A stretch of 64,000 nt of DNA from Arenibacter amylolyticus (GTDB lineage: Bacteria; Bacteroidota; Bacteroidia; Flavobacteriales; Flavobacteriaceae): NCBI RefSeq assembly GCF_002150785.1, contig NZ_MTAZ01000008.1, positions 1-64,000 of the forward strand, given 5' to 3'. Below are positions 30,447 through 61,925 of the stretch, in pieces (position 1 is the stretch's first letter; every line of letters begins with the position of its first letter). The translations under genes and the position numbers were made by a program. The notes under the pieces were generated by a model, which was not told where the DNA came from, made no database searches, and worked only from the letters and a program-made list of their open reading frames with translations.

Positions 30447-31277
30447 TTACAATTCCCTAACCCAAATATTTCTAAAACTTACCCTACTGTTATCCCCATG
30501 GTCTTGTAGTCTTAGGGGGCCTTTTCCATGTGGTGGATTTTTAGGCCATCCCACATAAGGAGTAGTTCCCTTTATCTCTACATGGTCTTGTATCACCACC
30601 CCGTTGTGGATAACGGTAATAGTGCCAGATTTTGTTTTATCGCCCTGCTCATTAAATTCCGGAGCATGGTAGATGATATCATAACTATTCCACTCCCCAC
30701 TAGGTACCGATGCCATGGCTAGGGGCGTATGTTGTTTATAAATGGAGCCTACTTGCCCGTTTACATAGGTGTCATTATCGTTATTATCCAATATTTGAAC
30801 CTCATACAAGCCTTGTAAAAACACCCCACTATTGCCCCTACTCTGTTTTTCACCCTGGATATCCTTGGGAGATTTCCACTCTAGGTGCAATTGAATGCTT
30901 CCAAAATCCTGAACGGTCTGAATGTCCCCAGTTTTATCGGCAACCGTCATGCTCCCATCCGAATTCACGTGCCATTTGGCTTTGGAGCCATCCTTGGTAC
31001 TCACCCAATTATCTAAGTTATCGCCATCAAAAAGCACAATGGCATCACTTGGGGGCTCTAGAAAAGCAGGGGTAGACTTTACCACAGGGGGTATAGGCTT
31101 GTACACTTCCGTTTCTTCGGGTGTGGTAGGCTCGGCACCCTTATATTCCTCATGAACCACTCGCTCATTGGATTGCATATTAGATGCAATGGGTTCCATG
31201 GCATCTACCGTTACCTTTTCCTTGCAGGCGACGGAAAGCAATAAAAAAAGTGGGATATACGTAAAAGTAAGTTTCAT
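30447..31277 (-). CDS. DUF1080 (3-keto-disaccharide hydrolase family) lipoprotein
   Basis: This 276-residue lipoprotein (signal ending LLLSVAC, Cys18) has a low-complexity linker followed by one DUF1080 domain (about residues 75-276). The domain has a jelly-roll lectin-like fold with LFDGDNLDNWVS, HLEWKSP, SRGNSGVFLQG, YEVQILDN and the end RLQDHGDNSRVSFRNIWVREL. DUF1080 proteins of Bacteroides have been shown to cleave 3-keto-glucosides. That makes this the likely periplasmic cleavage enzyme of the surrounding oxidative sugar cluster. It is a tandem paralogue of the next gene (19 bases apart), probably with different aglycone preference. Confidence 0.9.
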   Translation of the reverse strand: MKLTFTYIPLFLLLSVACKEKVTVDAMEPIASNMQSNERVVHEEYKGAEPTTPEETEVYKPIPPVVKSTPAFLEPPSDAIVLFDGDNLDNWVSTKDGSKAKWHVNSDGSMTVADKTGDIQTVQDFGSIQLHLEWKSPKDIQGEKQSRGNSGVFLQGLYEVQILDNNDNDTYVNGQVGSIYKQHTPLAMASVPSGEWNSYDIIYHAPEFNEQGDKTKSGTITVIHNGVVIQDHVEIKGTTPYVGWPKNPPHGKGPLRLQDHGDNSRVSFRNIWVREL

Positions 31278-31296
31278 AAAAGTATGGTTATTTGAC

Positions 31297-32067
31297 TTAG
31301 TCCAAAGATTTGATCTTTATATTTCTATAGGCAACGATATCTCCATGGTCTTGCAGACCAATTTTTCCGGTTGGATATTTCCCAAAATGATCGGAGCCCT
31401 TAAATTTGGATTTATCCACTAAGGCTTCCCATCCTTCCCCATTTACCGGGAAGTTAATAATCTCCTTGCCATTGAGGACCACACTGCCTTCATTGGTTTT
31501 GTGGTTTACTGTAAGCACGCAGGTATTCCATTCCCCAGCCGGCTTGGTAACATCTTCACTAGGCCCAACCATATCGTACAAAGCGCCTGCCTGACGGATA
31601 GGTCCGTTTTTGGCATCGGGGTGTTTTTTATTGTCCAAGACTTGAATCTCTGGTCCAGAAAGGTAGGCCTCGTTCAAGCTCTCTATTTCTTTCACTCCCC
31701 AAAAGATTCCGCTATTTCCCCCTTCAGAGATTCTCCACTCTAGGGAAAGAACAAAATTGGTAAAGCTCTCCTTGGTCACTAGGTTATACTTCTCCCCTTT
31801 TTTACGCTCTTTAGGCGGATAGAACACCATTGCGTTATCCTCTATTTTCCAAGCCTCACCAACGCCTTCTTCTAAATATCGCTTCCAAGAATCAAAATTG
31901 GTCCCGTCAAAAAGCACCTGCCATTCTCCCGAGTTTTCGGATGCACTGGCAGCTGTTTCCGTATTTGTAGTGACGTCCGAATCTGGCAACGCCCCGTCTT
32001 TTTCCTTTTTTTCCTTGCAGCCCATCACCAAAACAGCAATTAAGGCAGTATATAATAAGTTTTTCAT
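31297..32067 (-). CDS. DUF1080 (3-keto-disaccharide hydrolase family) lipoprotein, second copy
   Basis: This 256-residue protein has its start set at the ATG at 32065-32067, because this gives a clean lipoprotein signal (MKNLLYTALIAVLVMGC, Cys17). The longer frame to 32130 begins with a basic, non-signal stretch that lies in a hairpin. The DUF1080 domain covers about residues 50-256, with LFDGTNFDSWKRYL, LSLEWRISEGGNSGIFWGV, EIQVLDNKKHPD and IGLQDHGDIVAYRNIKIKSLD. It lies between its paralogue and a cytoplasmic TIM-barrel isomerase on the same strand. The same reaction class is inferred, hydrolysis or elimination of 3-keto-glycosides in the periplasm. Confidence 0.9.
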   Translation of the reverse strand: MKNLLYTALIAVLVMGCKEKKEKDGALPDSDVTTNTETAASASENSGEWQVLFDGTNFDSWKRYLEEGVGEAWKIEDNAMVFYPPKERKKGEKYNLVTKESFTNFVLSLEWRISEGGNSGIFWGVKEIESLNEAYLSGPEIQVLDNKKHPDAKNGPIRQAGALYDMVGPSEDVTKPAGEWNTCVLTVNHKTNEGSVVLNGKEIINFPVNGEGWEALVDKSKFKGSDHFGKYPTGKIGLQDHGDIVAYRNIKIKSLD

Positions 32068-32096
32068 AGGTAGATTTTTATAAGTTTTTAATGACC

Positions 32097-32134
32097 CTAT
32101 GTAAACTCGCCTAGCGGCAATGAAGTTCACATAG
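32097..32134 (-). terminator. Hairpin between isomerase and DUF1080 genes
   Basis: CTATGTaAACT pairs with AGTTcACATAG (11-base arms, one mismatch). It lies 34 bases after the isomerase stop and before the DUF1080 start. Only a weak T-rich stretch follows, so it may act as an attenuator or processing site. Confidence 0.4.
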
Positions 32135-32167
32135 CTTTATTCGCATCCCGAATATATTCCGATACGA

Positions 32168-33220
32168 TTATAGTCCCAATATTTGTTTAAGCATTTCTTT
32201 GTCTGTTTTGGCTCCTGCAAAATCATCAAATGTTTTTTCGGTGGCCTCAATAATATGGTCTTGGATGAATTTAGCACCTTCCCTTGCTCCTTGCTCTGGA
32301 CTTTTTATACAGCATTCCCACTCCATTACTGCCCACACATCACATCCGTACTGGGTAAGTTTGGAAAAAATGGTTTTAAAATCTATCTGTCCATCCCCCA
32401 AGGAACGGTATCTCCCAGCTCGATTTCCCCAATCGTTATAGCCCCCGAACATACCTTTCTTTCCTGTAGGGTTAAATTCGGAATCCTTCACGTGGAACGA
32501 TTTTATAAACTCGTGGTAGTGGTCTATATACGCGATATAGTCTAGTTGCTGAAGCACAAAATGACTTGGATCGTAAAGTATATTTACCCTTTTATGGTTT
32601 CCGGTAGCTGCCAAAAAGCGCTCAAAGGTATCCCCATCGTGAAGGTCTTCCCCTGGATGGATCTCATAACAGACGTCTACCCCCTCCTTATCAAAGTGGT
32701 TAAGAATGGGAAGCCATCTATTGGCCAATTCCTCAAAGCCCATTTCCACCAAACCGGCAGGGCGCTGTGGCCAAGGGTGCATGGTATGCCATAATAGGGA
32801 TCCGGAAAAAGTAGCATGCGCTTTTAATCCCAACCTACGGCTGGCGGTTGCCGCCTTTTTCACTCTATCTATTGCCCATTCTGTACGAGCTTTGGGGTTA
32901 TTCCTCATGTTCTCTGGCGCAAAACTATCGAACATCGTGTCATAGGCAGGATGTACTGCTACCAATTGCCCCTGCAAATGCGTAGACAATTCGGTAATTT
33001 CCAACCCATAGGAGTTGATCTTTCCTTTAAGCTCGTCACAATAAGTCTGACTCTCTGCTGCCTTATCTAGGTCTATCAGAAAATCTACCCAGGTAGGTAT
33101 CTGTATTCCCTTATACCCCAGATCGGATGCCCATTTACATATACCATCCAAAGAATTGAACGGCGCTTTTTCATCTATAAATTGTGCCAAAAATACGGCT
33201 GGCCCCTTAATTGTTTTCAT
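32168..33220 (-). CDS. Cytoplasmic sugar phosphate isomerase/epimerase-like TIM barrel (AP endonuclease 2 family)
   Basis: This 350-residue xylose-isomerase-like TIM barrel has no signal peptide, so it is cytoplasmic. The metal-site residues are placed in CYEIHPGEDLHDG (Glu), LYDPSHFVLQ (Asp/His), FIKSFHVKDSEF (His) and VMEWECCIK (Glu), with a GDGQIDF loop typical of the family. Such enzymes isomerise or epimerise keto sugars, and some act in 3-keto-glucose metabolism. It is followed by two DUF1080 lipoproteins on the same strand. It is the only one of the three barrels in this region that stays in the cytoplasm, which suggests it works on the imported sugar. Confidence 0.88.
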   Translation of the reverse strand: MKTIKGPAVFLAQFIDEKAPFNSLDGICKWASDLGYKGIQIPTWVDFLIDLDKAAESQTYCDELKGKINSYGLEITELSTHLQGQLVAVHPAYDTMFDSFAPENMRNNPKARTEWAIDRVKKAATASRRLGLKAHATFSGSLLWHTMHPWPQRPAGLVEMGFEELANRWLPILNHFDKEGVDVCYEIHPGEDLHDGDTFERFLAATGNHKRVNILYDPSHFVLQQLDYIAYIDHYHEFIKSFHVKDSEFNPTGKKGMFGGYNDWGNRAGRYRSLGDGQIDFKTIFSKLTQYGCDVWAVMEWECCIKSPEQGAREGAKFIQDHIIEATEKTFDDFAGAKTDKEMLKQILGL

Positions 33221-33685
33221 GTATATTTATCTATAATTAATTGTTTCCAAAAGCATTGAAGCGAATATGTCCCTTAAGTGAATAATAAGGATGCAACCCA
33301 ATAAGCTCCCTAATTTACTTCTTAACGCACATCTCCACGATCCAATAATGAGTTTGCCAACATTTCCTTCCGCCTATTTTCTCTTCCCTCTTTATTGTTC
33401 TTATCAACTATTAAATTGCCTTTTTAGGTTAATATATTTAATATTTTAACCCTATATTTAAAGAACAATAAACAATTGTTTCGCCAAAGCGAAGTCATAA
33501 ATATAAGGAAACCCCAAGAATAATCAGAATAATAAAGCATGGAATCAACCAACGATAAAAGTCGGCTTAACACCCACCATGGAAACCAACAGGGTCTTCA
33601 CAACAACAACCTCCCCCATTAAACTGAACAACAAGACTTTAACTACCTAGGGAGTAAGCGCAATTTATCGGTGAAATAAAAAGAA
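33221..33685. other. Intergenic region with a 12-bp inverted repeat
   Basis: This 465-base gap separates divergent genes. TTTATTGTTCTT (33391-33402) and its exact reverse complement (33461-33472) flank a second AT-rich imperfect palindrome (GGTTAA...TTAACC, 33428-33452). These may be regulator sites for the isomerase/DUF1080 genes. No convincing gene was seen; plus-strand frames of 27 and 47 codons look random. Confidence 0.4.
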
Positions 33686-33688
33686 GTG

Positions 33689-34156
33689 ATGCATACAACG
33701 ATGGAAAATAGATCAGCTAGAAATTTATGGGAAACCTTTGTGGAAGCCCATCCAGAATTTGCCGGTTTGGAAGCAGAGGGCACCCTTCAATTTTTTGAAA
33801 ACGAACAGGACGCCGACAGGCACGCCTCTTTAGTACTCAATCACGGCAAAACAGCTACTTCGTACTCCTTAGTGGGACTACAATGTAGGCAGGAGTCATT
33901 GCCAAAAACCGGATCGTTTTTAATTGTAGTCGATGGCCGGGGCAGCGCCCAATGTGTAGTGCAAATTACGGGCTTCACGCTAAAACCGTGGTACAGTATT
34001 ACAGCGGACCATAGCAGGCGCGAAGGATTTAGCTCCCTTGAGGAATGGAAAAAGACCTATTGGGATTATTTTTCCGAAGAACTAGCGCACCATGGCCGCT
34101 CCCCACAGGAAAGCATGATTATAGTCTGTGTAAATTTCGAAAAAATATATGGGTAA
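33689..34156 (+). CDS. ASCH domain protein
   Basis: This 155-residue cytoplasmic protein matches the ASCH fold (PUA-like RNA-binding superfamily), with NLWETFVEAHPEF, LVLNHGKTATSYS, GSFLIVVDGRGSAQCVVQITG and the late EGFSSLEEWKKTYWDYF segment. Some ASCH proteins are N4-acetylcytidine amidohydrolases, others are thought to bind RNA. The start is not certain: GTG 33686, ATG 33689 and ATG 33701 are all in frame. It is the only plus-strand gene between the two minus-strand halves of the sugar cluster and shows no link to sugar metabolism. A bidirectional terminator separates it from the dehydrogenase. Confidence 0.8.
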   Translation: MHTTMENRSARNLWETFVEAHPEFAGLEAEGTLQFFENEQDADRHASLVLNHGKTATSYSLVGLQCRQESLPKTGSFLIVVDGRGSAQCVVQITGFTLKPWYSITADHSRREGFSSLEEWKKTYWDYFSEELAHHGRSPQESMIIVCVNFEKIYG

Positions 34157-34177
34157 GCGCACAAGTTTGCACAAAAA

Positions 34178-34206
34178 AAAGGCTGCCTAGTTTGGCAGCC
34201 TTTTTT
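34178..34206. terminator. Bidirectional terminator
   Basis: AAAGGCTGCC/GGCAGCCTTTTTT hairpin has an A-run on one side and a T-run on the other. It serves both the ASCH gene (plus) and the convergent Gfo/Idh/MocA gene (minus). Confidence 0.9.
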
Positions 34207-34225
34207 GGTTTTTGAGTGGTAATCC

Positions 34226-35362
34226 TTATTTAAGATCTACCCAAACATTTCCTTTTTTATTAGATTCCACGGTACTTTCTATAAAATCCATTCCACGGAC
34301 CGCATCCAACATTGGAGGGAACTCTCCATCATTGTATTCTTCTCCGCGGATAGCCCTAGCTACCCCTTTATAGATATTACCCATAGCATCGAATATTCCT
34401 TCTGGATGCCCTGGAGGTAACTTAGTACCGTCTAAGGACAGTTCAGAGTTATAGGCGTGTCCTGGTTTAAAAATCTGCAAGGGCTCCGTATCGCTCTGTA
34501 CCTTCAGGTAATTTGGATTCTCCTGCTCCCATCTTAATCCGCCTTTGTCCCCGTAGATGGCAATGGCAAGACCATTCTCTTCTCCGGTGGCAACCTGACT
34601 AGCACGTACAATTCCCTTTACATGCTTGTCCATACGCACTAAAATAGTACCATCTACATCCATTTGATTATCATCGTACAGATAATTAAAGTCGGCCAAA
34701 ATAGACTTTATTCTCAATCCGGTGGTATACTCCACCATATTAAAGGCATGCACCCCAATATCTGCAATACAGGAACTGATACCTGCTTTTTTAGGATCTA
34801 AGCGCCAAACAGTGGATCGCTTTTCCTTATCGTGGATAATAGAATTTATCCATCCCTGATAATAACGCACATCTACCTTATGGACTTTTCCAATGGCTCC
34901 TGCCTTAATCATTTCTCGCATCTGACGCACCATAGGATACCCCGTATAGGTGTGGGTAATAGCCAATATAGCGTTGGTTTTTGCCTGGGCCTCCTGTAAA
35001 ACTAGCGCCTCCTCATAGGTGGTGGTAAAAGGCTTTTCACAAATTACATGAAAACCGTTCTCCAATAATTTTTTGGCCATTGGAAAATGCAGGAAATTTG
35101 GTGTAAGAATAGAACATACCTGGATACGCTCTTCCTTGGGCAATTTTAATTCTTCCTCCACCAAGGTGTCAAAATCCTTATAAATCCTATTGGTAGGAAT
35201 ATCTATCTCCCTGGCAAAGGCAAGACTCTCTTCGTGGTTGGGGTTAAAAACCGCTCCCACAATTTCATAATTATCATACATTTGAGAAGCTACCCGGTGC
35301 AATATTCCGATAAGGGAATCGCCCCCTCCTCCTAAAATACCTAATCTTATTTTTTTAGCCAT
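34226..35362 (-). CDS. Gfo/Idh/MocA family oxidoreductase, cytoplasmic
   Basis: This NAD(P)-dependent sugar dehydrogenase has 378 residues and no signal peptide. The Rossmann motif is LGILGGGGDSLIG (residues 6-18). The EKP motif is in HVICEKPFTTTYEEA, where the Lys is catalytic in the family. The C-terminal alpha/beta domain has SSCIADIGVHAFNMVEY, with an Asp and His pair in the substrate site. Members convert keto sugars and alcohols at one carbon. In this cluster it could reduce an imported 3-keto sugar. It is followed upstream by the NupG-like permease gene 18 bases away, so the two form one transcription unit. Confidence 0.92.
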   Translation of the reverse strand: MAKKIRLGILGGGGDSLIGILHRVASQMYDNYEIVGAVFNPNHEESLAFAREIDIPTNRIYKDFDTLVEEELKLPKEERIQVCSILTPNFLHFPMAKKLLENGFHVICEKPFTTTYEEALVLQEAQAKTNAILAITHTYTGYPMVRQMREMIKAGAIGKVHKVDVRYYQGWINSIIHDKEKRSTVWRLDPKKAGISSCIADIGVHAFNMVEYTTGLRIKSILADFNYLYDDNQMDVDGTILVRMDKHVKGIVRASQVATGEENGLAIAIYGDKGGLRWEQENPNYLKVQSDTEPLQIFKPGHAYNSELSLDGTKLPPGHPEGIFDAMGNIYKGVARAIRGEEYNDGEFPPMLDAVRGMDFIESTVESNKKGNVWVDLK

Positions 35363-35380
35363 ATGATTATTTTTACTGAT

Positions 35381-36610
35381 TTATTCTTTATACTCAACTT
35401 CTTCGTTCTTAAAAAATATGGTGAACAAGATCATCACCCCAAATGCAAAAATAGCAGGAAAGGTCCAAATATCAACCCAGCTATGCACTCCTTCTTCTAT
35501 AATATAACTATCGGTAATTTCTCCTGCAACCCAGAACCCTATCAACATACCCACTCCGTAGGTAGCCAAGGTAATTAGGCCTTGTGCGGCACTTTTATAT
35601 CTTTCTCCTGCCTTGGAATCCGTATAGATCTGCCCGGAAACAAAGAAGAAATCATAACAAATTCCGTGTAACGCAATTCCTATAAGCAACATATACGCTT
35701 GGTCTCCCGCATCCCCAAAGGCAAATAACAAATACCGAACGGTCCATGCCAACATTCCGGCAATAAGCGTCTTCTTAATTCCAAACCTCTTAAAAAAGTA
35801 AGGAAGTAATAACATAAACAATACTTCCGACGCCTGTCCGATGGTCATTTTCCCAGTAGGGTTTTCCATCCCAATTTCGGATAAGAAAGGGTTGGCATTT
35901 TGATAGTAAAACGCAAGCGGAATACATATTAAAATAGAAGAGACGAAGAAAATTAAAAAGTTTCTATCCTTTAATAGTTTTAAGGCATCCAACCCCAAAA
36001 TTTCGGATAGGGAAGGCTTTTCGTTCTTATTAACTTTTGGGGGCGTTTTTGGTAAGGTAAAACTGAAAAGCCCCAACACGGCCGAAGCAATAGCTACCAT
36101 TAGGAAGGTATTCCTTAACATCCCCGCTTCCCTAGCGGCTTCGGAATCCCACACAAACACATAACTAATAACCAAACCTGCAACAATCCACCCTATGGTA
36201 CCAAAAACACGAACAAAGGAGAATTCCTTGGCCGGATTTTTCATTTGGTTAAAGGAAATGGAGTTCACCAACGCCAAGGTAGGCATATAGACGATCATAT
36301 ACCCCAGCACATAGGGATAAAAAGAAGCAAAGTCTACCGACGTATACATTTGATACATCAATACCGCCCCCAACAAATGCAGAATCCCCAGGATACGTTC
36401 CGCATTAAAATACCTATCTGCAATTAGACCGATAATAAACGGCGCAATTATGGCCCCCCAGCTCTGTGTGGAAAATGCCATGGCCGTTTCGGCACCAGTG
36501 GCGTTGAGATTATTGCCCAAAAAGGTGCCCAAGGTAACAAACCAGCCTCCCCAGATAAAAAACTCCAGGAACATCATAAAAGAGAGCTGTGACTTAATTC
36601 TTAAATTCAT
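35381..36610 (-). CDS. Nucleoside permease NupG-like MFS transporter
   Basis: This inner-membrane symporter of 409 residues has about 12 helices. It resembles the NupG/XapB nucleoside:H+ symporter family (opening LSFMMFLEFFIWGGWFVTLGTFL and the IIAPFIIGLIADRYFNAERIL loop). In Bacteroidota, relatives commonly sit in sugar-oxidation clusters. The most likely cargo here is therefore a free (keto-)sugar rather than a nucleoside; that is inference from context. The gene is next to the Gfo/Idh/MocA dehydrogenase that would act on the imported product. Confidence 0.87.
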   Translation of the reverse strand: MNLRIKSQLSFMMFLEFFIWGGWFVTLGTFLGNNLNATGAETAMAFSTQSWGAIIAPFIIGLIADRYFNAERILGILHLLGAVLMYQMYTSVDFASFYPYVLGYMIVYMPTLALVNSISFNQMKNPAKEFSFVRVFGTIGWIVAGLVISYVFVWDSEAAREAGMLRNTFLMVAIASAVLGLFSFTLPKTPPKVNKNEKPSLSEILGLDALKLLKDRNFLIFFVSSILICIPLAFYYQNANPFLSEIGMENPTGKMTIGQASEVLFMLLLPYFFKRFGIKKTLIAGMLAWTVRYLLFAFGDAGDQAYMLLIGIALHGICYDFFFVSGQIYTDSKAGERYKSAAQGLITLATYGVGMLIGFWVAGEITDSYIIEEGVHSWVDIWTFPAIFAFGVMILFTIFFKNEEVEYKE

Positions 36611-36736
36611 ACGTTAATATTTATTAATTTAAATGACGGTCTTAATTTGCCCGCGTCTAACTGCATAGGTTAAACCGGGCTATGGCTGGTTAATTATGGT
36701 CCAGGCATGCACGCTCCCCTCCCTATGGAAGCCACC

Positions 36737-36791
36737 TCTTTAAAACCAAAGAGCGCAATGACCGTTTACGAACTATAATTCAGGTCATTGC
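36737..36791 (-). repeat. Two hairpins between isomerase and permease genes
   Basis: GCAATGACC (36755-36763) pairs with GGTCATTGC (36783-36791). Next to it CTCTTT/AAAGAG forms a small stem at about 36737-36754. They lie 67 bases after the isomerase stop on the minus strand with no clear T-run. This may be an attenuator or a processing site. Confidence 0.4.
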
Positions 36792-36858
36792 ACTCCTTAA
36801 ATTTTATTTTGGTTGCGAACAAACCCCTTAACGGAGTCTACATACCTACTAGGAGTGC

Positions 36859-37848
36859 TTAATTAAGCTCACTCCCTGCTTTTATAAGCAGATCCCTAGT
36901 GGCCAATATACCTTCTTCTTCACTTAATTCACCACCTTCGTACTCTACACCAATATACCCGGTATAGCCAGCATCCTTCACTATCTTCAAAATTCTGCGA
37001 TAGTCAAGATTTCTCTCGTTCCCCTCCTCGTCAAAAACGTTGGACTTGGCACTTACCGCTAGGGCATGTGGCATTAGTTCTTTCATTCCCTTGTAAGGAT
37101 CGTACATGTCGGCACATCCAGAAGCAGTTCTTTCGATACAGAAATTTCCAAAATCTGGAAGTGTTCCACAGTTTTCCATACCAACTTTGGTCATTACCTC
37201 GGCCAATAAAGCCCCATTGGAAGAAAGTCCGCCATGGTTCTCTACCAGCACGTTGATGTTCTTATCTTTAGCATAAGTAGCCAATTGGGTAAGTCCGTCT
37301 ACAGAACTAGCTACCCACTCTTCGGGATCGTTGCTTCCAGCAAGATTTACCCTAATAGCATGGCAACCCATGGCTGCAGCAGCATCTACCCACTTGTAAT
37401 GATTTTCTACTGCCGCTTTTCTCTCTGCCGCATCCGGTGTAGCCAAATTACCTTGACCATCTATCATAATCAGCAGGTTCTTTAAACCGTACTTTTCACT
37501 TAGCTCATTATTTTTTGCAACAAAGGCATCCATCGCCTCTTGGGAGAAATTGGATTTTTTCAATTCATCATAATACAATCCGCTTACATACTCCAAACCA
37601 GAAAACCCCCATTCCTTCGCTTTTTCGGCAAAAGAGTAAGGATCTACTCCTTCGTTTCTGATCATTCTGTGCATTGACCATTGTGCTAAGGAAAGTTTAA
37701 AGAATGGCTCTTCGGAGCTAGCGGTCGCCGCTACGCTCTCCGTATCCTTTGCCTGTTCTTTTGGAGCATCTTTACAAGATAGCATCCCTACGAACAATAA
37801 TGCCATCACTAATTTAAACCCATTGAGCTTCAAGTTTTTACCTTTCAT
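36859..37848 (-). CDS. Lipoprotein sugar isomerase/epimerase-like TIM barrel
   Basis: This 329-residue xylose-isomerase-like TIM barrel carries an unusual N-terminal lipoprotein signal (MALLFVGMLSC, Cys25). It is therefore outside the inner membrane, unlike normal sugar phosphate isomerases. Probable metal ligands are Glu in NINVLVENHGG, Asp in LPDFGNFC, and Glu in YIGVEYEGGELSEEE near the end. It is divergent from the GMC oxidoreductase over a 135-base promoter region. An exported enzyme of this fold next to an exported sugar oxidase and DUF1080 proteins fits a periplasmic step on a non-phosphorylated keto sugar or keto-glycoside. Confidence 0.88.
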   Translation of the reverse strand: MKGKNLKLNGFKLVMALLFVGMLSCKDAPKEQAKDTESVAATASSEEPFFKLSLAQWSMHRMIRNEGVDPYSFAEKAKEWGFSGLEYVSGLYYDELKKSNFSQEAMDAFVAKNNELSEKYGLKNLLIMIDGQGNLATPDAAERKAAVENHYKWVDAAAAMGCHAIRVNLAGSNDPEEWVASSVDGLTQLATYAKDKNINVLVENHGGLSSNGALLAEVMTKVGMENCGTLPDFGNFCIERTASGCADMYDPYKGMKELMPHALAVSAKSNVFDEEGNERNLDYRRILKIVKDAGYTGYIGVEYEGGELSEEEGILATRDLLIKAGSELN

Positions 37849-37884
37849 TTTCTTTTATTATATTAAATTTAAGATTCATCGATA

Positions 37885-37900
37885 ACTACAACGTTGTAGT
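37885..37900. promoter_or_regulatory. Perfect 16-bp palindrome with AACGTT core (LacI-type operator candidate)
   Basis: ACTACAACGTTGTAGT is perfectly symmetrical with the central CpG step favoured by LacI/GalR regulators. It lies in the divergent region between the lipoprotein isomerase (37 bases before its start) and the GMC gene (83 bases before its start). It could control both arms of the cluster. No LacI-family gene is in the window. Confidence 0.55.
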
Positions 37901-37946
37901 ACCGATCTATTAACAAATACAAGGTTTAAATGTAGAAAATTAATTC

Positions 37947-37954
37947 TATATTTA
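37947..37954 (+). promoter_or_regulatory. Possible -7 box of the GMC operon
   Basis: TATATTTA has one mismatch to TAnnTTTG and lies 29 bases before the GMC ATG. On the other strand TGTATTTG (37914-37921, read on minus; one mismatch) may serve the isomerase. Confidence 0.4.
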
Positions 37955-37983
37955 ACAACTATATTAAACAAACAATTTTCCAG

Positions 37984-39696
37984 ATGAGCAAATTTTATTA
38001 TAACGAAGAGCAAGAGTCTTACGACGCTATCGTCGTAGGTACGGGGATTAGCGGAGGTTGGGCTGCTAAGGAGCTGTGCGAGAACGGACTTAAAACACTG
38101 GTGTTGGAAAGAGGGAGAATGGTCAATCACATTGAGGATTACACCACGGCAAATATGGACACTTGGGATTTTCCAAACAATGGGGAACTGACCCCCGAGG
38201 AAAAGGCCAAGCAACTTAAACAAGCCCGTACCGGTTATACGGTAAAGAAACCACACAACCATTGGTTTGTCAATGATTTGGAACACCCTTACAATGAAAC
38301 CAAGCGATTCGACTGGATGCGGGGCTACCATGTTGGGGGGCGTTCCCTCACCTGGGGAAGACATAGTTACCGCTGGTCGGACATCGATTTTGAAGCCAAT
38401 AAGAAGGATGGCATTGCCGTGGATTGGCCCGTTAGATACAAGGATATTGCCCCTTGGTACGACAAGGTGGAATCTTATATAGGCGTCTGTGGTGAAAACC
38501 TGGGCTTGCCGCAACTTCCGGATGGCCAGTTTTTGCCCATGATGGATTTAAACTGTGTAGAACAACACTTTAGGGAAAAAGTTGCCGAAAATTTTGACGG
38601 CAGAGTGGTCACTGCAGGTAGGGTGGCGCATATTACGGGCGACAAAGAGTTTGAAGGCCGTACTAAATGTCAGTTTAGAAACAGATGTATACGAGGTTGT
38701 CCTTTTGGCGCCTATTTCAGTAGTAATTCCTCTACGCTTCCGGCAGCCGAACGCACCGGAAATCTAACCTTAAGACCAGATTCCATCGTTACCGAGGTAA
38801 TCTACGATCCCAATACCAAGAAGGCCAGTGGGGTAAAGGTTATTGATAGAGTGACCAAGGAGACCTATGAGTTTAAAGCCAAGGTGATCTTCCTTTGTGC
38901 TTCGGCCATAGCCTCTACCGCCATATTAATGCAATCCAAATCGGACCGCTTCCCCAATGGACTGGGGAACGATTCGGACCAATTGGGAAGAAACATTATG
39001 GACCACCATTTAGGTGTTGGAGCAAGCGGTAAATTTGATGGATTTGACGATAAATACTATAAGGGTAGAAAACCAAACGGCATTTATATTCCAAGATTCA
39101 AGAATCTAGGGGGAAAATCCAATGCCAAGGATTATATCCGTGGTTTTGGTTACCAAGGAGGTGCCAGCAGGGGGAACTGGGAAGAAACCATCGCCGAGGT
39201 TTCCCACGGTAAAGATTTAAAGGAAGCCATTTTGAAGCCAGGGGGCTGGACCTTTGGAATGATGGGCTTTGGAGAAGTACTTCCCTACGAGGACAACCGT
39301 ATGACCTTAGATTACGATAAGCTGGATGGATGGGGCCTACCCACCGTTACTTTTGACGCGGAGTTTAAGGAGAACGAGTGGAATATGCGTAAGGAAATGA
39401 AGGAGCAGGCCGTAGAAATGCTAACCAAAGCGGGGCTGCGGGATGTACAATCGTACGACAACCCGGGAGCGCTAGGGCTGGGCATCCATGAAATGGGAAC
39501 CGCCAGGATGGGCAGGGACCCAAAAACATCGGTGTTAAACGGCCACAACCAAATACATGCCGTTCCCAATGTATACGTAACGGACGGGTCTTTTATGACT
39601 TCTGCAAGTTGTGTAAACCCCTCTTTAACCTATATGGCCTTTACGGCCAGGGCTGCTAACCACGCCGCCCAAGAACTTAAAAAAGGAAATCTATAA
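37984..39696 (+). CDS. GMC-family FAD sugar oxidoreductase with three-Cys iron-sulfur motif
   Basis: This 570-residue glucose-methanol-choline family flavoprotein has the FAD-binding fold YDAIVVGTGISGGWAAKEL at residues 13-31. A Cys-rich segment TKCQFRNRCIRGCPFGA has Cys229, Cys235 and Cys239, which align in spacing with the [3Fe-4S] ligands of bacterial FAD-dependent glucose dehydrogenase. The C-terminal active-site HEMGTARMG and the closing SCVNPSLTYMAFTARAANHAA are intact. It has no signal peptide. In this enzyme group the catalytic subunit is exported through the Tat path by its small partner, encoded by the next gene (1-base overlap). Relatives oxidise glucosides at C3, the likely first step of this cluster. 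Confidence 0.92.
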   Translation: MSKFYYNEEQESYDAIVVGTGISGGWAAKELCENGLKTLVLERGRMVNHIEDYTTANMDTWDFPNNGELTPEEKAKQLKQARTGYTVKKPHNHWFVNDLEHPYNETKRFDWMRGYHVGGRSLTWGRHSYRWSDIDFEANKKDGIAVDWPVRYKDIAPWYDKVESYIGVCGENLGLPQLPDGQFLPMMDLNCVEQHFREKVAENFDGRVVTAGRVAHITGDKEFEGRTKCQFRNRCIRGCPFGAYFSSNSSTLPAAERTGNLTLRPDSIVTEVIYDPNTKKASGVKVIDRVTKETYEFKAKVIFLCASAIASTAILMQSKSDRFPNGLGNDSDQLGRNIMDHHLGVGASGKFDGFDDKYYKGRKPNGIYIPRFKNLGGKSNAKDYIRGFGYQGGASRGNWEETIAEVSHGKDLKEAILKPGGWTFGMMGFGEVLPYEDNRMTLDYDKLDGWGLPTVTFDAEFKENEWNMRKEMKEQAVEMLTKAGLRDVQSYDNPGALGLGIHEMGTARMGRDPKTSVLNGHNQIHAVPNVYVTDGSFMTSASCVNPSLTYMAFTARAANHAAQELKKGNL

Positions 39697-40343
39697 TGGA
39701 TAGAAGAAAAGCATTACGGAACATGGGGCTGTCACTAGGATACGTAGTGGCCACCCCCACATTATTGACCCTAGTACAAAGCTGTAAACAAGATACCGCC
39801 TTGGTATGGACCCCAGACTTCCTAAGTAAGGAAGAGGGGACGGTACTCACCACTTTGGTAGACATCATTCTTCCAAAAACGGACACGCCTTCGGCCTCCG
39901 AAGTGCAGGTGCATCTTTTTATTGATCGCTTTGCAAACGAAATTATGGAGCCCGAACAAAAGGAACTCCTTAAAATGAGCATGGGCAAGTTTATAGACAA
40001 AGCCCTAGCGGATTCTGGAAAAACCAGTAAGGACAACCTTACCGCCGAAGATTTAGAACCGGTATTGGCTGCTGCACTCAGCACTTCCAAAGAAGAGCAG
40101 GCTAAATATTTTGAATTGATCTCTGCCTATACCGAGGCCGTTCGGGAACAAAAAACCGCTTCCTTAGACGACGAAGTATCCAGGTTTGCCTTTGCCAACA
40201 ATTTACGAGGGTTAACCATTTGGGGGTATAAGACCTCCGAATATGTAGGGGAAAACGTGCTGGCATATATGCCTGTTCCAGGTGAGTATATCGCTTGCGG
40301 AGACTTAGAGGAATTAACCGGTGGCAAAGCATGGTCGCTCTAA
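39696..40343 (+). CDS. Gluconate 2-dehydrogenase subunit 3-like (small Tat subunit)
   Basis: This 215-residue small subunit partners the GMC oxidoreductase. The N-terminus has twin arginines (MDRRKALRNMG) and a hydrophobic stretch ending LVQSC (Cys30), so it may be a Tat-exported lipoprotein. The helical Gluconate_2-dh3 domain follows, with TTLVDIILPKTDTPSASEVQVHLFIDRF and the final GYKTSEYVGENVLAYMPVPGEYIACG. It helps the larger subunit fold and leave the cell. Related enzymes carry a third, cytochrome c subunit; none is encoded in the next gene here, so the electron acceptor is open. Confidence 0.9.
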   Translation: MDRRKALRNMGLSLGYVVATPTLLTLVQSCKQDTALVWTPDFLSKEEGTVLTTLVDIILPKTDTPSASEVQVHLFIDRFANEIMEPEQKELLKMSMGKFIDKALADSGKTSKDNLTAEDLEPVLAAALSTSKEEQAKYFELISAYTEAVREQKTASLDDEVSRFAFANNLRGLTIWGYKTSEYVGENVLAYMPVPGEYIACGDLEELTGGKAWSL

Positions 40344-40356
40344 AATATATTGCAAA

Positions 40357-41274
40357 TTGAGAAGAAGAGATTTTATACAAAAAACCGCCCTCAGCAGTGG
40401 GGCGGTTACCTTAGGGGGATCCTTAGCTTACGGTTCCCCGTTTGGCCAAGGACAAAATAAACATACGTTTAACCTTAAATACGCCCCACACTTTGGCATG
40501 TTCAGGAACGTTGCTGGCAACGATCCCATTGACCAATTGCATTTCATGGCCGAGCAGGGTTTTACCGCGCTGGAAGACAATGGAATGATGGGTAGGGATG
40601 TGGCCCTACAAACCAAGATTGGGGATACCCTGGCAAAGCTTAATATGACCATGGGAGTTTTTGTAATAGACAAAGGAGGCAACATGGCCAATACTTTGGC
40701 GGCCGGCAAAAAGGAAAATGTAGATATTTTTCTGGATGGCTGTAGAAGGGCGGTAGAGGTTGCCAAACGCGTTAATGCCAAATGGATGACCGTAGTTCCT
40801 GGCGCCTATGACCGAAGCCTTCCCATAGGAATACAGAATGCCAATGTAATTGAAGCCCTAAGAAAAGGCGCCGAAATACTGGAGCCCCATGGTTTGGTGA
40901 TGGTATTGGAACCTCTTTCAGATTCTCCGGACCTTCACTTACAGACTTCAGAACAAACCTATTTAATCTGTAAAGGAGTAAACAGTCCCTCCTGTAAAAT
41001 TCTGTACGACATATATCATATGCAGAAGAATGAAGGCCACCTCATCCACAATATGAATCTTACCTGGGATGAAATTGCCTATATTCAGGTAGGCGATAAT
41101 CCTGGCCGAAAAGAGCCTACCACTGGGGAAATCAATTATAAAAATGTCTTTAAATACTTATATGATAAAGGATTTAAAGGAGTGGTTGGTATGGAACACG
41201 GCAACTCCAGACCCAACAAGGAAGGGGACCTAGCCGTAATCAATGCGTATAAAGAGGTAGACAACTTCTTATAA
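40357..41274 (+). CDS. Tat-exported hydroxypyruvate isomerase-like TIM barrel
   Basis: This xylose-isomerase-like TIM barrel of 305 residues is placed with TTG 40357 as start. That choice gives MRRRDFIQKTALSSGAVTLG, a textbook Tat signal, 13 bases after the previous stop. The longer GTG 40321 overlaps the previous gene. The metal-site motifs of hydroxypyruvate isomerases are seen: VLEPLSDSPDLHL (Glu), KILYDIYHMQKNEGHLI (Asp/His), IQVGDNPGRKEPTTGEINY and GMEHGNS (Glu). It is the third barrel of the region and the second that is exported. The protein is thus likely periplasmic and acts on an unphosphorylated sugar. It ends the GMC operon. Confidence 0.87.
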   Translation: MRRRDFIQKTALSSGAVTLGGSLAYGSPFGQGQNKHTFNLKYAPHFGMFRNVAGNDPIDQLHFMAEQGFTALEDNGMMGRDVALQTKIGDTLAKLNMTMGVFVIDKGGNMANTLAAGKKENVDIFLDGCRRAVEVAKRVNAKWMTVVPGAYDRSLPIGIQNANVIEALRKGAEILEPHGLVMVLEPLSDSPDLHLQTSEQTYLICKGVNSPSCKILYDIYHMQKNEGHLIHNMNLTWDEIAYIQVGDNPGRKEPTTGEINYKNVFKYLYDKGFKGVVGMEHGNSRPNKEGDLAVINAYKEVDNFL

Positions 41275-42056: not shown

Positions 42057-42370
42057 CACCCTAAAATTTTAAATACCTAGGTTACACATTAAAGATTTAA
42101 AGGGGATTGGGGAACATCAAATTTATAGGAAACATCCAGTTAAAATCTAACATATTGTATAGTTGGTATAGTATCCTGTATGAATGGTAAGAGCGTTTAA
42201 AAAACTCCCGAAATGCCTATGATGGCTATACTAATAGAGATCGGCAATGTATTAGAATCCTTCCCAATCTTACCCCTTTTCTTGCCATTTACACTCGAAA
42301 CAAATCCATTGATACAAAACTTGCTTATCAAGTAGACAATGGATTATAATTTAACTATCTTACCTTGGTT
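42057..42370. other. Regulatory gap before the LytTR gene
   Basis: This 314-base region contains a two-part inverted repeat at 42303-42345: AATCCATTG with CAATGGATT, enclosing ACTTG/CAAGT. It ends 26 bases before the regulator start. No gene was seen here. Confidence 0.5.
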
Positions 42371-43105
42371 ATGTTAGAAGCGGTATTAGTAGACGACGAA
42401 ATTAAAGCACTCCAAAGTCTTTCTTGGGAGCTCACCAATTTCAGCAATGATATTAAGGTGATAGCCTCCTTTACAGATCCTTTTGAGGCACTGGAGTATT
42501 TACAGCATTATACTCCAGACTGCTTGTTTTTGGATATTGAGATGCCCACTATGGACGGATTTCAATTTATCCAAAAACTTCAAAACAGGGATTTCCCTGT
42601 GGTCATTACCACCGCCTACAACCAATACGCCATTAAGGCCCTTAAACACGAGGCAATAGACTACTTACTAAAGCCTATTGATACGGACGATTTAAACTTG
42701 ACCATAGCCAAGATCAGAAAGTTTAACGACAAAAATGATACCTATTCCAAATTGGAAAAAGTATTGTTGAAATTTAATTCAGATTCGCAGCACAGGAAAA
42801 TAACCATCAACACAGATGGGAAATTATTATTTTTAGAAAGCGATGAAATTCTCTACGCAGAATCAGATGGGAATTACAGCACCCTATTTTTAAGTGACGG
42901 CCAGAAAATTCTGTTGACAAAAAAACTGAAAGAGGTAAATGAACTTTTGCCGAAGGATACTTTTTTTAGGATTCACAATTCGTTCATCATCAATATGCAC
43001 AAGATAAAAGAATTCATAAAAACCGACGGCTATGTTATTCTTCAATCCAATCACAAAATTCCAGTATCAAGACAAAAAAAGTCGGATTTTCTGGATTTAA
43101 TTTAG
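42371..43105 (+). CDS. LytTR-family response regulator
   Basis: This 244-residue regulator has a receiver domain (residues 1-120) with acidic pocket Asp8-Asp9, phosphoacceptor Asp55 in LFLDIEMPTMDGF, and Lys in YLLKPIDTDD. A LytTR DNA-binding domain follows (about 140-244; ILYAESDGNYSTLFL, FFRIHNSFIINMHKIKEF). The ATG at 42371 is preferred over the TTG at 42365 because VDDE then lies at the usual distance from the N-terminus. The sensor kinase gene follows after 23 bases, so they form one two-component operon. Confidence 0.95.
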   Translation: MLEAVLVDDEIKALQSLSWELTNFSNDIKVIASFTDPFEALEYLQHYTPDCLFLDIEMPTMDGFQFIQKLQNRDFPVVITTAYNQYAIKALKHEAIDYLLKPIDTDDLNLTIAKIRKFNDKNDTYSKLEKVLLKFNSDSQHRKITINTDGKLLFLESDEILYAESDGNYSTLFLSDGQKILLTKKLKEVNELLPKDTFFRIHNSFIINMHKIKEFIKTDGYVILQSNHKIPVSRQKKSDFLDLI

Positions 43106-43128
43106 TTTAACCACAAAAATCCAATTTT

Positions 43129-45093
43129 TTGAAGTTGGCCATTTCCCATAAATACGCACCGTTAACTATTAAGTCACGCTTATTTTGGGCACTGCTTGTG
43201 TGTTTAACTCCTCTTACATCCTTCTCCCAAGAGGTGCCAGAATCCTTTAAAAAACGTAGCGATAGCCTAATCCAAGCAGCACCAACCACCTACCAACAGT
43301 TAGATAAGGTACTGAGACCCTATAGGACCGACACCATTTACATGCGCTATTTCAGTAAGGCCGCTGCCCATAAGCAATATTATGATGGTGAAGCCTACGC
43401 CCTTAATCAATTGGGACGAAAATACAGGGAAATTGCCCTTTTCCCCAAGGCCATTGCCCTCCACACACAAGCCCTGCAGGCGGCAGTAAAGGCAGATAAC
43501 TTGGAGTTTAGGGTCTACAGCCTAAACATGCTGGGGGTAATTTACCGGAAAAGCGATGCCATAAAAATTGCCCTAGATTACCACCAAGAGGCCTTGGACC
43601 TAGCATACACTGCTCAAAATCCCTCCATGGGCATTAAAAGAAGCATCAATGTTTCCTTAAACAGCATTGGCAATCTTTACCAAACCTTAAGACAGTACGA
43701 TATAGCCATCGCGCAGTACAAAAAATCCATGGCCCTAGAAAGGGAGCTAAACAATAAGTTGGGCTTGGCTATAAACTATCAAAACATTGGGGATTGCCTA
43801 GAAGAACAAGGGCAACTAGCAGACGCCCTTCACCACTATAGAACCTCCTTGGAATACAATAACGAAATTAACAATGATAAGGGATTAATTATTTGCAAAA
43901 ACAGCATCGCCCAAGTATATATAAAACAAAACAAACCCGAGGACGCCCTTTCCATTCTAGAGCCCAATCTATTGGCAGCGGAGGAAATTGGAAATAGGTT
44001 TATTGCCACCTCCATCAACCTTAATATAGGATGGGCACTTTTAAAACTTAAGCAGTACGCAAAAGCCCAGGAATACCTTAACAAAGGTCTGGAAATGGCC
44101 CAAACCCATCACCTACCCAGCTTTATCTCCAAGGCTTTTACCCTATTATCGGAATTAGCCACCCATAAAGCAAATTATAAAGATGCCCTGGTATATTATC
44201 AAAAGGCAGAAAGCCTAAATGTTGCCATCAATAGTGAGGTGAACCGTAAATATATTTACGATCTCATCATAAAGTATGAAACGGAGAAAAAGAATAATGA
44301 AATATTGAATTTAGCGAGCGAAAATCTCGAAATAAACCACCGACTAAGGAGAAACAAAAACATGCTCCTCATAGGTTCCTTGGGAATGGCCCTATTCACC
44401 TTTCTTTTATACATCCTTTACCGCCAGAAGGAACTGAAAAGTGAAAAAAAGATCCTTACCCTGGAGCAAAGCATGCTACGCAGCCAGATGAATCCTCACT
44501 TTTTGTTCAACTCCCTAAACTCCATCAAGTTATATATTATTAACAACGAGAAGAAAAATGCCGTTCACTACCTAAATAAGTTTTCCAAATTGGTGCGTAA
44601 AATCCTAGAAGCCTCTTCGGTAAAGGAAATCTCACTTTTTGATGAGCTAGAGACCATAGAGCTCTATATGAACATTGAAAACATCCGTTTTTCCAATGAA
44701 ATAAATTTCTCCATCACCATAGAAGACCCCATCGACCCGCATACCGTGAAAATTCCATCTTTAATATTGCAACCCTTTCTGGAAAATGCGATATGGCACG
44801 GGCTCTCTACCAAAGAAGGCGAAAAAAACATAGATCTAAGAGTAAGTAGGGAAGACAACCACTACATACAAATAACCATTACAGATAACGGCGTAGGTCG
44901 TAAAGCTTCCGAAAGACTAAAGAAAAATAAGGTTCTGAAAGGAAAATCCGTGGGAATAGACATTACCAAAGAGCGCTTGGCAAACTTTTCCAAAGATTTT
45001 GAACACAATTTTCAGGTAGAAATTATAGATCTATATGATGACAATAAGCAAGCCTTGGGCACGCGAGTAGTACTCCACATCCCTACGACTTAG
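43129..45093 (+). CDS. LytS/YehU-type sensor histidine kinase with TPR sensor region
   Basis: This 654-residue kinase probably starts at TTG 43129, or at TTG 43135, because only these give the signal peptide (LFWALLVCLTPLTSFSQ). A periplasmic region of about 400 residues consists of TPR repeats (for example LGLAINYQNIGDCLEEQGQLADALHHY). One membrane helix follows at about 415-435 (NMLLIGSLGMALFTFLLYILY), then a His_kinase domain with PHFLFN (His457) and an HATPase with ENAIWHGL and TDNGVGR. Periplasmic TPRs suggest sensing of a peptide or protein. It is paired with the LytTR regulator just upstream. The 3' end overlaps the convergent DUF3109 gene by 11 bases. Confidence 0.93.
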   Translation: MKLAISHKYAPLTIKSRLFWALLVCLTPLTSFSQEVPESFKKRSDSLIQAAPTTYQQLDKVLRPYRTDTIYMRYFSKAAAHKQYYDGEAYALNQLGRKYREIALFPKAIALHTQALQAAVKADNLEFRVYSLNMLGVIYRKSDAIKIALDYHQEALDLAYTAQNPSMGIKRSINVSLNSIGNLYQTLRQYDIAIAQYKKSMALERELNNKLGLAINYQNIGDCLEEQGQLADALHHYRTSLEYNNEINNDKGLIICKNSIAQVYIKQNKPEDALSILEPNLLAAEEIGNRFIATSINLNIGWALLKLKQYAKAQEYLNKGLEMAQTHHLPSFISKAFTLLSELATHKANYKDALVYYQKAESLNVAINSEVNRKYIYDLIIKYETEKKNNEILNLASENLEINHRLRRNKNMLLIGSLGMALFTFLLYILYRQKELKSEKKILTLEQSMLRSQMNPHFLFNSLNSIKLYIINNEKKNAVHYLNKFSKLVRKILEASSVKEISLFDELETIELYMNIENIRFSNEINFSITIEDPIDPHTVKIPSLILQPFLENAIWHGLSTKEGEKNIDLRVSREDNHYIQITITDNGVGRKASERLKKNKVLKGKSVGIDITKERLANFSKDFEHNFQVEIIDLYDDNKQALGTRVVLHIPTT

Positions 45094-60701: not shown

Positions 60702-60725
60702 CATGTCTAACTAAATTATAGGTCA

Positions 60726-61925
60726 ATGCTAAAATCCAGTTTTAAAGTCTTAATCCTGATCCTAATAGGATTGATCGTGCTTTCATGTGAAGACATTCTT
60801 CCCTCAGCACCCATGGAATCCGAGTTGTTGGATGGCCCCATGGAAGGATTAACCCATGCGCAAAGCGCACAATTTATTCGCGGCGATGTTGCTTTTAACG
60901 ACGAGCTTTTCCATTCCGGAAATGGACTTGGCCCCCTATTCGTAGCCACTAGCTGTGTTAGTTGCCATGCGGGGGATGGGAAGGGCTTACCTTCTACCTC
61001 CCTAACTCGTTTTGGACAAATAGACGCTACCGGCAATAAGTTCTTGCATTTGGGCGGACCCCAATTACAAAACCGTGCCCTCCCAGGATACACTCCAGAA
61101 ACTATTCCGGAGGGAGCTACCTATTCGGTTTTTACCCCGCCAGCGGTTACCGGACTTGGATTTCTTCAATATGTAACGGACGAAGACATCCTTGCGCTAG
61201 CCGACCCCGATGATCTGGACGACGATGGTATTTCCGGGGTGCCCAATTGGGATTACATCAGGGATTTTACCATCCCCCGTCCCGATGCCATCACCAGGGA
61301 CGGAAAGTATATTCACCGTTTTGGAAAAAAAGCTTCGGTATACGATCTCTTAGAGCAAACCGTTGACGCCTACAACCAAGACATGGGAATCAACTCGATC
61401 TTTGACCCCATTGACACTTTTTCTGGTTTATCCATAGATCCAGAAATTTCCCAACAAACCATTAGAGACGTCGTTTTTTACCTAGAGACCTTAAAAGCAC
61501 CCATTCCCAGAGATCAGGATGATCCACAGGTGCAGCAGGGGAAAGCAATTTTCTCACAAATACAGTGTGCCTCTTGCCATTTACCGGAAATGAAAACAGG
61601 ATACTCCCCCATAGAGGCATTATCCTATAAAACCTTCCACCCCTATACCGATTTATTACTACACGATATGGGACCAGAACTGGACGATGGTTACACCGAA
61701 GGAAGTGCACTTACCTCAGAATGGCGTACTGCCCCTTTATGGGGGTTGGGACTATCCAAGAATTCTCAAGGGGGACATTACTTTTTAATGCACGACGGCA
61801 GGGCCAGAAGTATAGAAGAGGCCATTCTACTCCATGGGGGAGAGGCTGAGAACAGTAAAAATCTTTACGTTGGCCTGGACCAATCTGAAAAAGAAGACCT
61901 AATTAAATTTTTGGAAAGCTTATGA
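60726..61925 (+). CDS. Di-heme oxidoreductase, DUF1111/COG3488 family, lipoprotein
   Basis: This 399-residue lipoprotein (signal ending IVLSC, Cys21) has two c-type heme motifs: CVSCH (Cys77-His81) in ATSCVSCHAGDGKG, and CASCH in IQCASCHLPEM in the second half. It is related to the MauG/cytochrome c peroxidase superfamily and to the so-called thiol oxidoreductases. In other bacteria the family is encoded with imelysin-type iron-regulated proteins. Here a Rieske protein follows with a 4-base overlap. The protein sits in the periplasm or on a membrane and passes electrons to or from its partners. Control by the divergent DtxR-family regulator is inferred from the operator. Confidence 0.92.
   Translation: MLKSSFKVLILILIGLIVLSCEDILPSAPMESELLDGPMEGLTHAQSAQFIRGDVAFNDELFHSGNGLGPLFVATSCVSCHAGDGKGLPSTSLTRFGQIDATGNKFLHLGGPQLQNRALPGYTPETIPEGATYSVFTPPAVTGLGFLQYVTDEDILALADPDDLDDDGISGVPNWDYIRDFTIPRPDAITRDGKYIHRFGKKASVYDLLEQTVDAYNQDMGINSIFDPIDTFSGLSIDPEISQQTIRDVVFYLETLKAPIPRDQDDPQVQQGKAIFSQIQCASCHLPEMKTGYSPIEALSYKTFHPYTDLLLHDMGPELDDGYTEGSALTSEWRTAPLWGLGLSKNSQGGHYFLMHDGRARSIEEAILLHGGEAENSKNLYVGLDQSEKEDLIKFLESL

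Follow-up and report, generated by a model that had tools for sequence, protein, structure and literature searches.

A gene cluster of Arenibacter amylolyticus that probably encodes oxidation and beta-elimination of glycosides split over two compartments

Gene content of the cluster

The DNA analyzed was a stretch of 64,000 nucleotides from Arenibacter amylolyticus (RefSeq assembly GCF_002150785.1, contig NZ_MTAZ01000008.1, positions 1 to 64,000 of the forward strand), hereafter the window, in which the genes at 30447-41274 had been read in an original prediction as an oxidative glycoside-degradation system. An open reading frame (ORF) list and a Pfam scan recovered all nine genes named there: two DUF1080 lipoproteins, a GMC flavoprotein with its twin-arginine translocation (Tat) partner, three triosephosphate isomerase (TIM) barrels, a permease and a Gfo/Idh/MocA oxidoreductase. 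An ASCH-domain gene lying among them had been omitted. The minus strand carries D1 (30447..31277; PF06439, 3keto-disac_hyd, 138.7 bits), a DUF1080 lipoprotein and candidate 3-keto-glycoside cleaver; D2 (31297..32130; PF06439, 159.5 bits), a second DUF1080 lipoprotein of another subfamily; HYD (32168..33220; PF01261), a predicted cytoplasmic TIM barrel homologous to a 2-hydroxy-3-keto-glucal hydratase (PDB 8ro4); GFO (34226..35362; PF01408 and PF22725), a predicted cytoplasmic Gfo/Idh/MocA oxidoreductase and proposed 3-keto-sugar reductase; an NupG-like major facilitator superfamily (MFS) permease of the nucleoside:H+ symporter family (35381..36610; PF03825, 386.9 bits), the proposed importer of the cleavage product; and LTIM (36859..37848; PF01261), a xylose-isomerase-like TIM barrel with a lipoprotein-type start, proposed as a periplasmic 3-keto-glycoside eliminase. 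The plus strand carries GMC (37984..39696; PF00732 and PF05199), the catalytic subunit, with a C-x5-C-x3-C motif and no signal of its own; GMCS (39696..40343; PF13618, Gluconate_2-dh3 family, 98.0 bits), its Tat partner; and TTIM (40321..41274; PF01261, 100.4 bits), a Tat-type TIM barrel resembling hydroxypyruvate isomerases and ketose 3-epimerases, whose true start is possibly internal to the ORF.

All signal and location assignments were made from sequence motifs with no predictor, and the lipobox-like N-termini of D1 (SVACK) and D2 (VMGCK) were read by eye. A simple lipobox expression performed badly on LTIM (23 of 53 and 25 of 50 sequences), and an aligned Cys column was used instead. N-terminal motifs agreed with the three addresses predicted for the TIM barrels (cytoplasm, lipoprotein, Tat): HYD has no signal motif, Cys occupies the Cys25 column of LTIM in 47 of the 50 sequences aligned (window LTIM together with 49 of 51 listed LTIM sequences, L055 and L093 being left out), and TTIM has a twin-arginine (RR) start in 22/22 aligned sequences.

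Conservation of the cluster

Named genomes were scanned with a GMC alignment and the best 80 of at least 591 confirmed stretches were kept as GMC-centred loci, a choice by which close relatives dominate the set. Families were called within about 10 kb using profiles built here, at ≥150 bits (≥60 bits for GMCS); some loci end at contig ends, and plasmid loci (L122-L125, L159-L161) stand outside the locus counts. GMCS was called in 74 of the 80 loci, LTIM in 53, GFO in 52, DUF1080 in 51, HYD in 49, the MFS permease in 43, ASCH in 26 and TTIM in 22. DUF1080, HYD, GFO, MFS, LTIM, GMC and GMCS were all present in 34 loci, 11 of which add TTIM, and the gene order of the window is kept in many of the closest loci. 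A grouping conserved to this extent is not chance. GMC itself was found in 12/12 other same-genus genomes examined (80-96% identity) and in 1/8 genomes of other families of the order. The nearest named loci in the scan belong mostly to Flavobacteriaceae such as Flagellimonas, Maribacter and Cellulophaga, which are marine; the host bacterium is probably marine as well.

The hydratase homologue

HYD was aligned with PDB 8ro4 ("2-hydroxy-3-keto-glucal hydratase"), to which it is 65% identical over 350 amino acids, its full length, with the motifs CYE.HPGED, ILYDPSHF, FHVKD and EWEC in common. We take 8ro4 to be AtHYD of Agrobacterium. HYD is accordingly a homologue of 2-hydroxy-3-keto-glucal hydratase and its putative activity is the same. 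A hydratase for this compound is useful only if the compound is made, which argues that the glycosidic bond is probably cut by beta-elimination to 2-hydroxy-3-keto-glucal and not by hydrolysis only. The frame originally predicted, with oxidation outside, exported cleavage, uptake and cytoplasmic reduction by GFO, fits the evidence; it is the nature of the cut that the match to 8ro4 revises.

Association of the families was surveyed in 148 Bacteroidota genomes, the window's genome included, with statistics that ignore kinship. HYD was found in 33 genomes, GMC in 44, GFO in 48, LTIM in 30 and TTIM in 19. All 33 HYD genomes carry both GMC and GFO (chance expectation 9.8 and 10.7), lying within 20 kb of HYD in 20 and 31 of them, respectively. 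LTIM accompanies HYD in 18 genomes where 6.7 would be expected, and TTIM does so in 12 against an expectation of 4.2; the distance to HYD is within 20 kb in 6 and 4 of these, respectively. The families thus co-occur, where a lack of co-occurrence had been named as evidence against the predicted system. HYD is also the most conserved member of the cluster, at 76-93% identity (median 87; the corresponding median for GMC, over the same 45 loci, is 75). On plasmids, HYD, Gfo, GMC and GMCS stand together in 4 of 5 HYD regions opened (Croceicoccus, Ketogulonicigenium, Palleronia and Pseudoalteromonas); HYD of these four proteobacterial clusters is 58-69% identical to that of the window, and the Pseudoalteromonas GMC only 33% identical to window GMC.

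These figures bear on a hydrolytic version of the pathway, in which the DUF1080 lipoproteins would hydrolyse 3-keto-glycosides outside, the 3-keto-sugar would be imported and reduced by GFO, the exported TIM barrels would be epimerases interconverting 3-keto-galactose and 3-keto-glucose, and HYD would merely salvage eliminated sugar. Constant company with GMC and GFO in every HYD genome of the survey and such strong conservation are odd for a salvage enzyme, and OGE-like TIM barrels occur in clusters of this kind elsewhere. In favor of hydrolysis, TTIM matches the 3-keto-D-glucoside 4-epimerase YcjR in a profile search (E 3.8e-12), sugar epimerases lie near LTIM by fold, Pfam names DUF1080 proteins 3-keto-disaccharide hydrolases, and CCNA_01705 has been proposed as a periplasmic 3'-ketolactose hydrolase (PMC9007349). 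We consider this version rather unlikely.

Catabolism of a cyclitol or inositol-like compound was weighed on the same proteins: GMC would oxidise the cyclitol outside, HYD would be an IolE-type dehydratase, GFO an inositol-type dehydrogenase and the TIM barrels isomerases of the route. Models of that pathway do match, IolE to HYD at 5.6e-16, IolG to GFO at 6.2e-14 and the epimerase IolO to LTIM (6.9e-6) and TTIM (7.6e-12), but the scores fall far under the curated cut-offs (HYD 58.9 against 290 bits for TIGR04379; GFO 51.6 against 355). HYD resembles 8ro4 instead, and its assignment as IolE or an isomerase was rejected in favor of that match. We know of no place for DUF1080 proteins in the inositol route, and of all the readings weighed we give this one the least credence.

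The oxidase and its partner

The gene of the GMC subunit (PF00732/PF05199) adjoins that of a Tat-signal PF13618 protein, as in glycoside 3-dehydrogenases of the GlycDH/LacABC type. RR stands near the start in 75/76 GMCS sequences, window included; in window GMCS it is followed by a possible lipobox (VQSC), and the protein is perhaps a Tat-lipoprotein, judging by these motifs. The three-Cys motif C229-x5-C235-x3-C239 of GMC is invariant in 8/8 aligned sequences (window included). A three-Cys iron-sulfur motif is a feature of the flavin adenine dinucleotide-dependent glucose and fructose dehydrogenases, and large subunits of fructose and glucose dehydrogenases are the nearest solved relatives of GMC (about 1e-34 to 1e-40). 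The third component of LacABC is a c-type cytochrome subunit. Mono-heme lipoproteins that are alike by eye were found near GMC in 10 of the 80 GMC-centred loci, and the genome of the window encodes two clear homologues of them and one partial one, elsewhere in the genome.

Two or more GMC genes were counted in 24 of the 80 loci. The second copy (66-71% identical) stands beside ASCH in about 20 loci, between HYD and GFO where both are visible; the corresponding gap of the window (33221-33685) was searched for a lost second GMC and gave no match. One same-genus genome holds a broken GMC paralogue with internal stops (C23:83642-84687).

Candidate cutters

LTIM was compared with solved structures by sequence and by fold. 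Its closest solved relative is 4ovx (50% identity), a protein with no assigned function, followed in the profile search by C-glycoside deglycosidases of the DgpC type at low similarity. The AlphaFold2 model (mean predicted local distance difference test score, pLDDT, 90.3) again ranked 4ovx first, with DgpB-C complexes and Microbacterium CGD at ranks 2-7 (template modelling score 0.62-0.66). E203, H205, D232, S266, K268 and E302 (ORF numbering) are invariant in 50/50 aligned sequences. E203, H205, D232 and E302 align in a profile alignment with ligand and catalytic positions of OGE/CGE (positions from PMC10628242), and the Glu-x-His motif of strand 5 is kept as E203-N-H205 in 50/50. Two Cys at positions 236 and 244 (alignment numbering, one below that of the ORF) are likewise invariant in 50/50, not being found in aligned 4ovx; a disulfide between them is possible and would fit export.

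Occurrence of LTIM was then set against that of OGE. Among 81 HYD loci, 48 hold LTIM only, 11 OGE only, 1 both and 21 neither (Fisher p 9e-5, kinship uncorrected). Loci with LTIM belong mostly to close relatives of the window and those with OGE mostly do not, so this near-exclusion may reflect descent. Chances are about even that LTIM does the job that OGE does elsewhere. A bolder proposal is that LTIM represents a new lipoprotein lyase family, anchored in the inner membrane and facing outward, which would cleave 3-keto-glycosides although it lacks the usual metal site with four ligands, and would have replaced OGE in Flavobacteriaceae; imported 2-hydroxy-3-keto-glucal would then link the periplasmic and cytoplasmic halves, in some genomes encoded in two places. 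We hold this as tentative and, as a whole, doubtful.

The nearest solved relatives of TTIM are the hydroxypyruvate isomerase-like proteins 3ngf and 1k77, then D-tagatose 3-epimerases (ketose 3-epimerases) and YcjR. In the aligned sequences E197, D230 and E292 are present in 22/22 and Q256 in 19/22, with His at that place in 3; the model has a mean pLDDT of 82.3. With the hydroxypyruvate isomerase model of NCBIfam (TIGR03234) TTIM scores 114.2 bits, under the cut-off of 353. Epimerisation or isomerisation had been predicted for both exported TIM barrels. That role is not required, given the OGE-like TIM barrels with export-type starts in similar clusters and the nearness of LTIM to C-glycoside deglycosidases by fold; for TTIM an epimerase or isomerase role is plausible from its relatives. 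A cutting role for TTIM is left open by TTIM relatives that adjoin GMC genes.

Both DUF1080 proteins scored far above the PF06439 cut-off of 26.8 bits. D1 shares 52-53% identity with DUF1080 proteins whose genes adjoin GMC in Catenovulum and Palleronia; D2 has 3h3l as its best solved relative (E 6.6e-38) and is 37% identical to the DUF1080 protein of the Pseudoalteromonas cluster. The genome of the window holds 18 DUF1080 stretches. The Catenovulum plasmid cluster (L161:3019-10243; from algae) encodes a Tat-type TIM barrel, at 44% identity to TTIM, with a PVC-type heme protein, DUF1080, GMC and GMCS, beside a sulfatase and GH43; HYD was not found in that plasmid stretch.

The reductase

GFO has 3v5n as its best solved relative (E 5e-87) and carries no signal motif. 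A BT_2158/BT_2159-like assignment was rejected (33.9 against 750 bits and 17.8 against 650, NCBIfam cut-offs); the best NCBIfam match is levoglucosan dehydrogenase NF052479 at 88.6 bits, under its cut-off of 650.

Compartments and split loci

Export of OGE-type cutters was examined in other clusters. In the Ketogulonicigenium cluster the TIM barrel is a homologue of AtOGE, a known eliminase (8bvk; E 1.5e-94), and bears a signal resembling those of the general secretory (Sec) pathway, as does its 57% identical relative in the Palleronia cluster. Bacteroidota genomes other than that of the window provided 33 HYD-centred loci from 32 genomes, of which 11 hold OGE-like TIM barrels with a YHNH motif; RR stands near the start in 14/14 copies.

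Around HYD, a span of about 10 kb is free of DUF1080, LTIM, TTIM and OGE in ten of these loci, which come from 9 genomes; GFO is near HYD in 8 of the ten. They were first counted against the two-compartment pathway, a count that was dropped once PF06439 and PF01261 searches placed cutters beside GMC: in all 9 genomes GMC lies elsewhere and has a TIM barrel or a DUF1080 gene as its neighbor. There GMC and GMCS adjoin an exported-type TIM barrel in 7/9 genomes and a DUF1080 gene in 2/9. Taking one region per genome, 6/9 join GMC and GMCS to a TTIM-like TIM barrel with an RR or Arg-Lys start, 1/9 to a homologue of LTIM that has RR as well as a lipobox-like Cys, 1/9 to a DUF1080 protein with a signal-like start, and 1/9 to just a DUF1080 fragment at the contig end. 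Some genomes, by their motifs, encode an outer half (oxidase and exported cutter) and an inner half (hydratase, usually with reductase) as two gene groups, and this separation supports a reading in two compartments.

A different order of events, in which whole 3-keto-glycosides are imported and cut inside while the roles of the DUF1080 lipoproteins and the exported TIM barrels lie in a different pathway, would suit the sugar ABC transporters found in three of the proteobacterial regions. The Sec-like signals on the OGE-type TIM barrels of Ketogulonicigenium and Palleronia speak against it, as does the window cluster itself, in which no candidate for a cytoplasmic cleaver was found. We regard import before cleavage as improbable.

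Proposed pathway

We consider it probable that the cluster encodes glycoside oxidation, beta-elimination, hydration and reduction split over two compartments. GMC, carried out by its Tat partner, would oxidise a glycoside at C3 outside the inner membrane, with a c-type cytochrome encoded at another place as the electron acceptor. Cleavage of the resulting 3-keto-glycoside would take place in the periplasm, through the DUF1080 lipoproteins, through LTIM standing in for OGE, or through both, and the eliminated sugar, 2-hydroxy-3-keto-glucal, would be imported by the NupG-like permease. In the cytoplasm HYD would hydrate it to 3-keto-glucose, which GFO would reduce to glucose. TTIM would be accessory, perhaps an epimerase admitting other sugar configurations. 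What the analysis observed are the genes and their families, how well they are conserved, how often they co-occur and their location motifs; all activities, oxidation at C3, the substrate and the direction in which the permease works are inferred from these.

Several observations weigh against this pathway or parts of it. The nearest solved relatives of GMC oxidise fructose or glucose, not C3, and the glycoside 3-oxidase 7qf8 (PsG3Ox; PMC10646112) matches at just 1e-12, so oxidation at C3 is proposed from the context of the gene. In the window GMC has no c-type cytochrome gene beside it, the nearest plausible CxxCH frame (60711-61922) lying about 20 kb off. The deglycosidase profile matches to LTIM cover mainly its C-terminal part, whereas the isomerase Art22 matches most of its length at 4.8e-8; by fold, Art22 and sugar epimerases come close behind, the epimerases from rank 16 of the list on, with E values about hundredfold weaker than rank 2. 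Ser266 replaces the metal-binding His on strand 7 of deglycosidases and eliminases in 50/50 LTIM sequences, and LTIM was for this reason not filed as a member of the OGE/CGE eliminases. In the 148-genome survey LTIM occurs without HYD in 12/30 genomes and without GMC in 5/30, and within 20 kb of HYD in just 6/18 genomes having both. A Pontibacter plasmid LTIM has no cluster partner nearby, and a Phyllobacterium plasmid holds HYD and Gfo with no GMC near. The permease family PF03825 is named for nucleosides. Finally, treatment of DUF1080 proteins as hydrolases, by Pfam and in PMC9007349, keeps hydrolysis outside the cell as the main rival.

The pathway proposed here would give a testable role to exported xylose-isomerase-like proteins, which recur in Bacteroidota and have so far been named by fold alone. 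If it is true, many bacteria share an oxidise-then-eliminate route in which interchangeable outer cutters feed a constant cytoplasmic pair of hydratase and reductase.

Neighboring genes

The ASCH-domain gene (33686..34156, plus strand; PF04266, 61.8 bits) lies within the cluster on the strand opposite to its neighbors. Past the cluster, a response-regulator-like protein and a sensor-kinase-like protein with tetratricopeptide repeats (42365-45093, both judged by eye) recur at ≥70% in 13/80 and 9/80 GMC-centred loci, respectively, and the pair could regulate the cluster. A second Gfo/Idh/MocA protein is encoded at 56134-57558; among its homologues near HYD loci, 9/9 show an RR-type start.

Comparison with known systems

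Publications were searched by title and abstract start; none was found that gives a role to the exported TIM barrels in clusters of this type, or that joins three of the terms DUF1080, GMC oxidoreductase, TIM barrel, sugar phosphate isomerase and Flavobacteri. The cluster is best described as a new arrangement of a pathway whose separate parts have been known before. In the Bacteroides set BT2156-BT2160, DUF1080 proteins, TIM barrels and Gfo enzymes reportedly act on 3-keto-glycosides, the oxidation being made by Gfo-type enzymes. The same three families are found in the window, where a GMC complex is present in place of Gfo enzymes of the BT_2158/BT_2159 type. The C-glycoside deglycosidases DgpB-C and CGD are the nearest characterised folds to LTIM, with which they share Glu-x-His; LTIM differs in its lipoprotein start, in lacking the seventh-strand His and in having no small partner subunit in the cluster.

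Oxidation, elimination, hydration and reduction also make up the levoglucosan pathway described for Bacillus smithii (PMC7676230), which starts with levoglucosan dehydrogenase in place of an exported GMC complex. LacABC-type dehydrogenases have been noted near DUF1080 genes in Caulobacter and other lactose users, e.g. Indibacter and Algoriphagus (PMC9007349); in the section of that account on them, the fate of 3-ketogalactose is left open and no hydratase or eliminase is named, unlike the arrangement proposed here.

The closest parallel by gene set is the operon of A. tumefaciens, in which GlycDH, AtOGE, AtHYD and Gfo are encoded together (PMC10628242). In that work GlycDH was co-expressed with a Tat-signal protein, the two coming from Rhizobium sp. 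GIN611; the evidence for AtHYD is called preliminary by its authors, and the word "periplasm" was not found in the main text (PMC10628242). The chemistry at the window, as far as its proteins tell, is probably the one proposed for that bacterium, in the same order of oxidation, elimination, hydration and reduction (PMC10628242). Both clusters combine a GMC-type oxidase and Tat-signal partner with a hydratase homologue, a Gfo reductase and a TIM barrel as candidate cleaver. The window departs from the operon in that a lipoprotein TIM barrel from a different family, along with DUF1080 lipoproteins, seemingly occupies the slot of OGE, with an MFS permease in addition.

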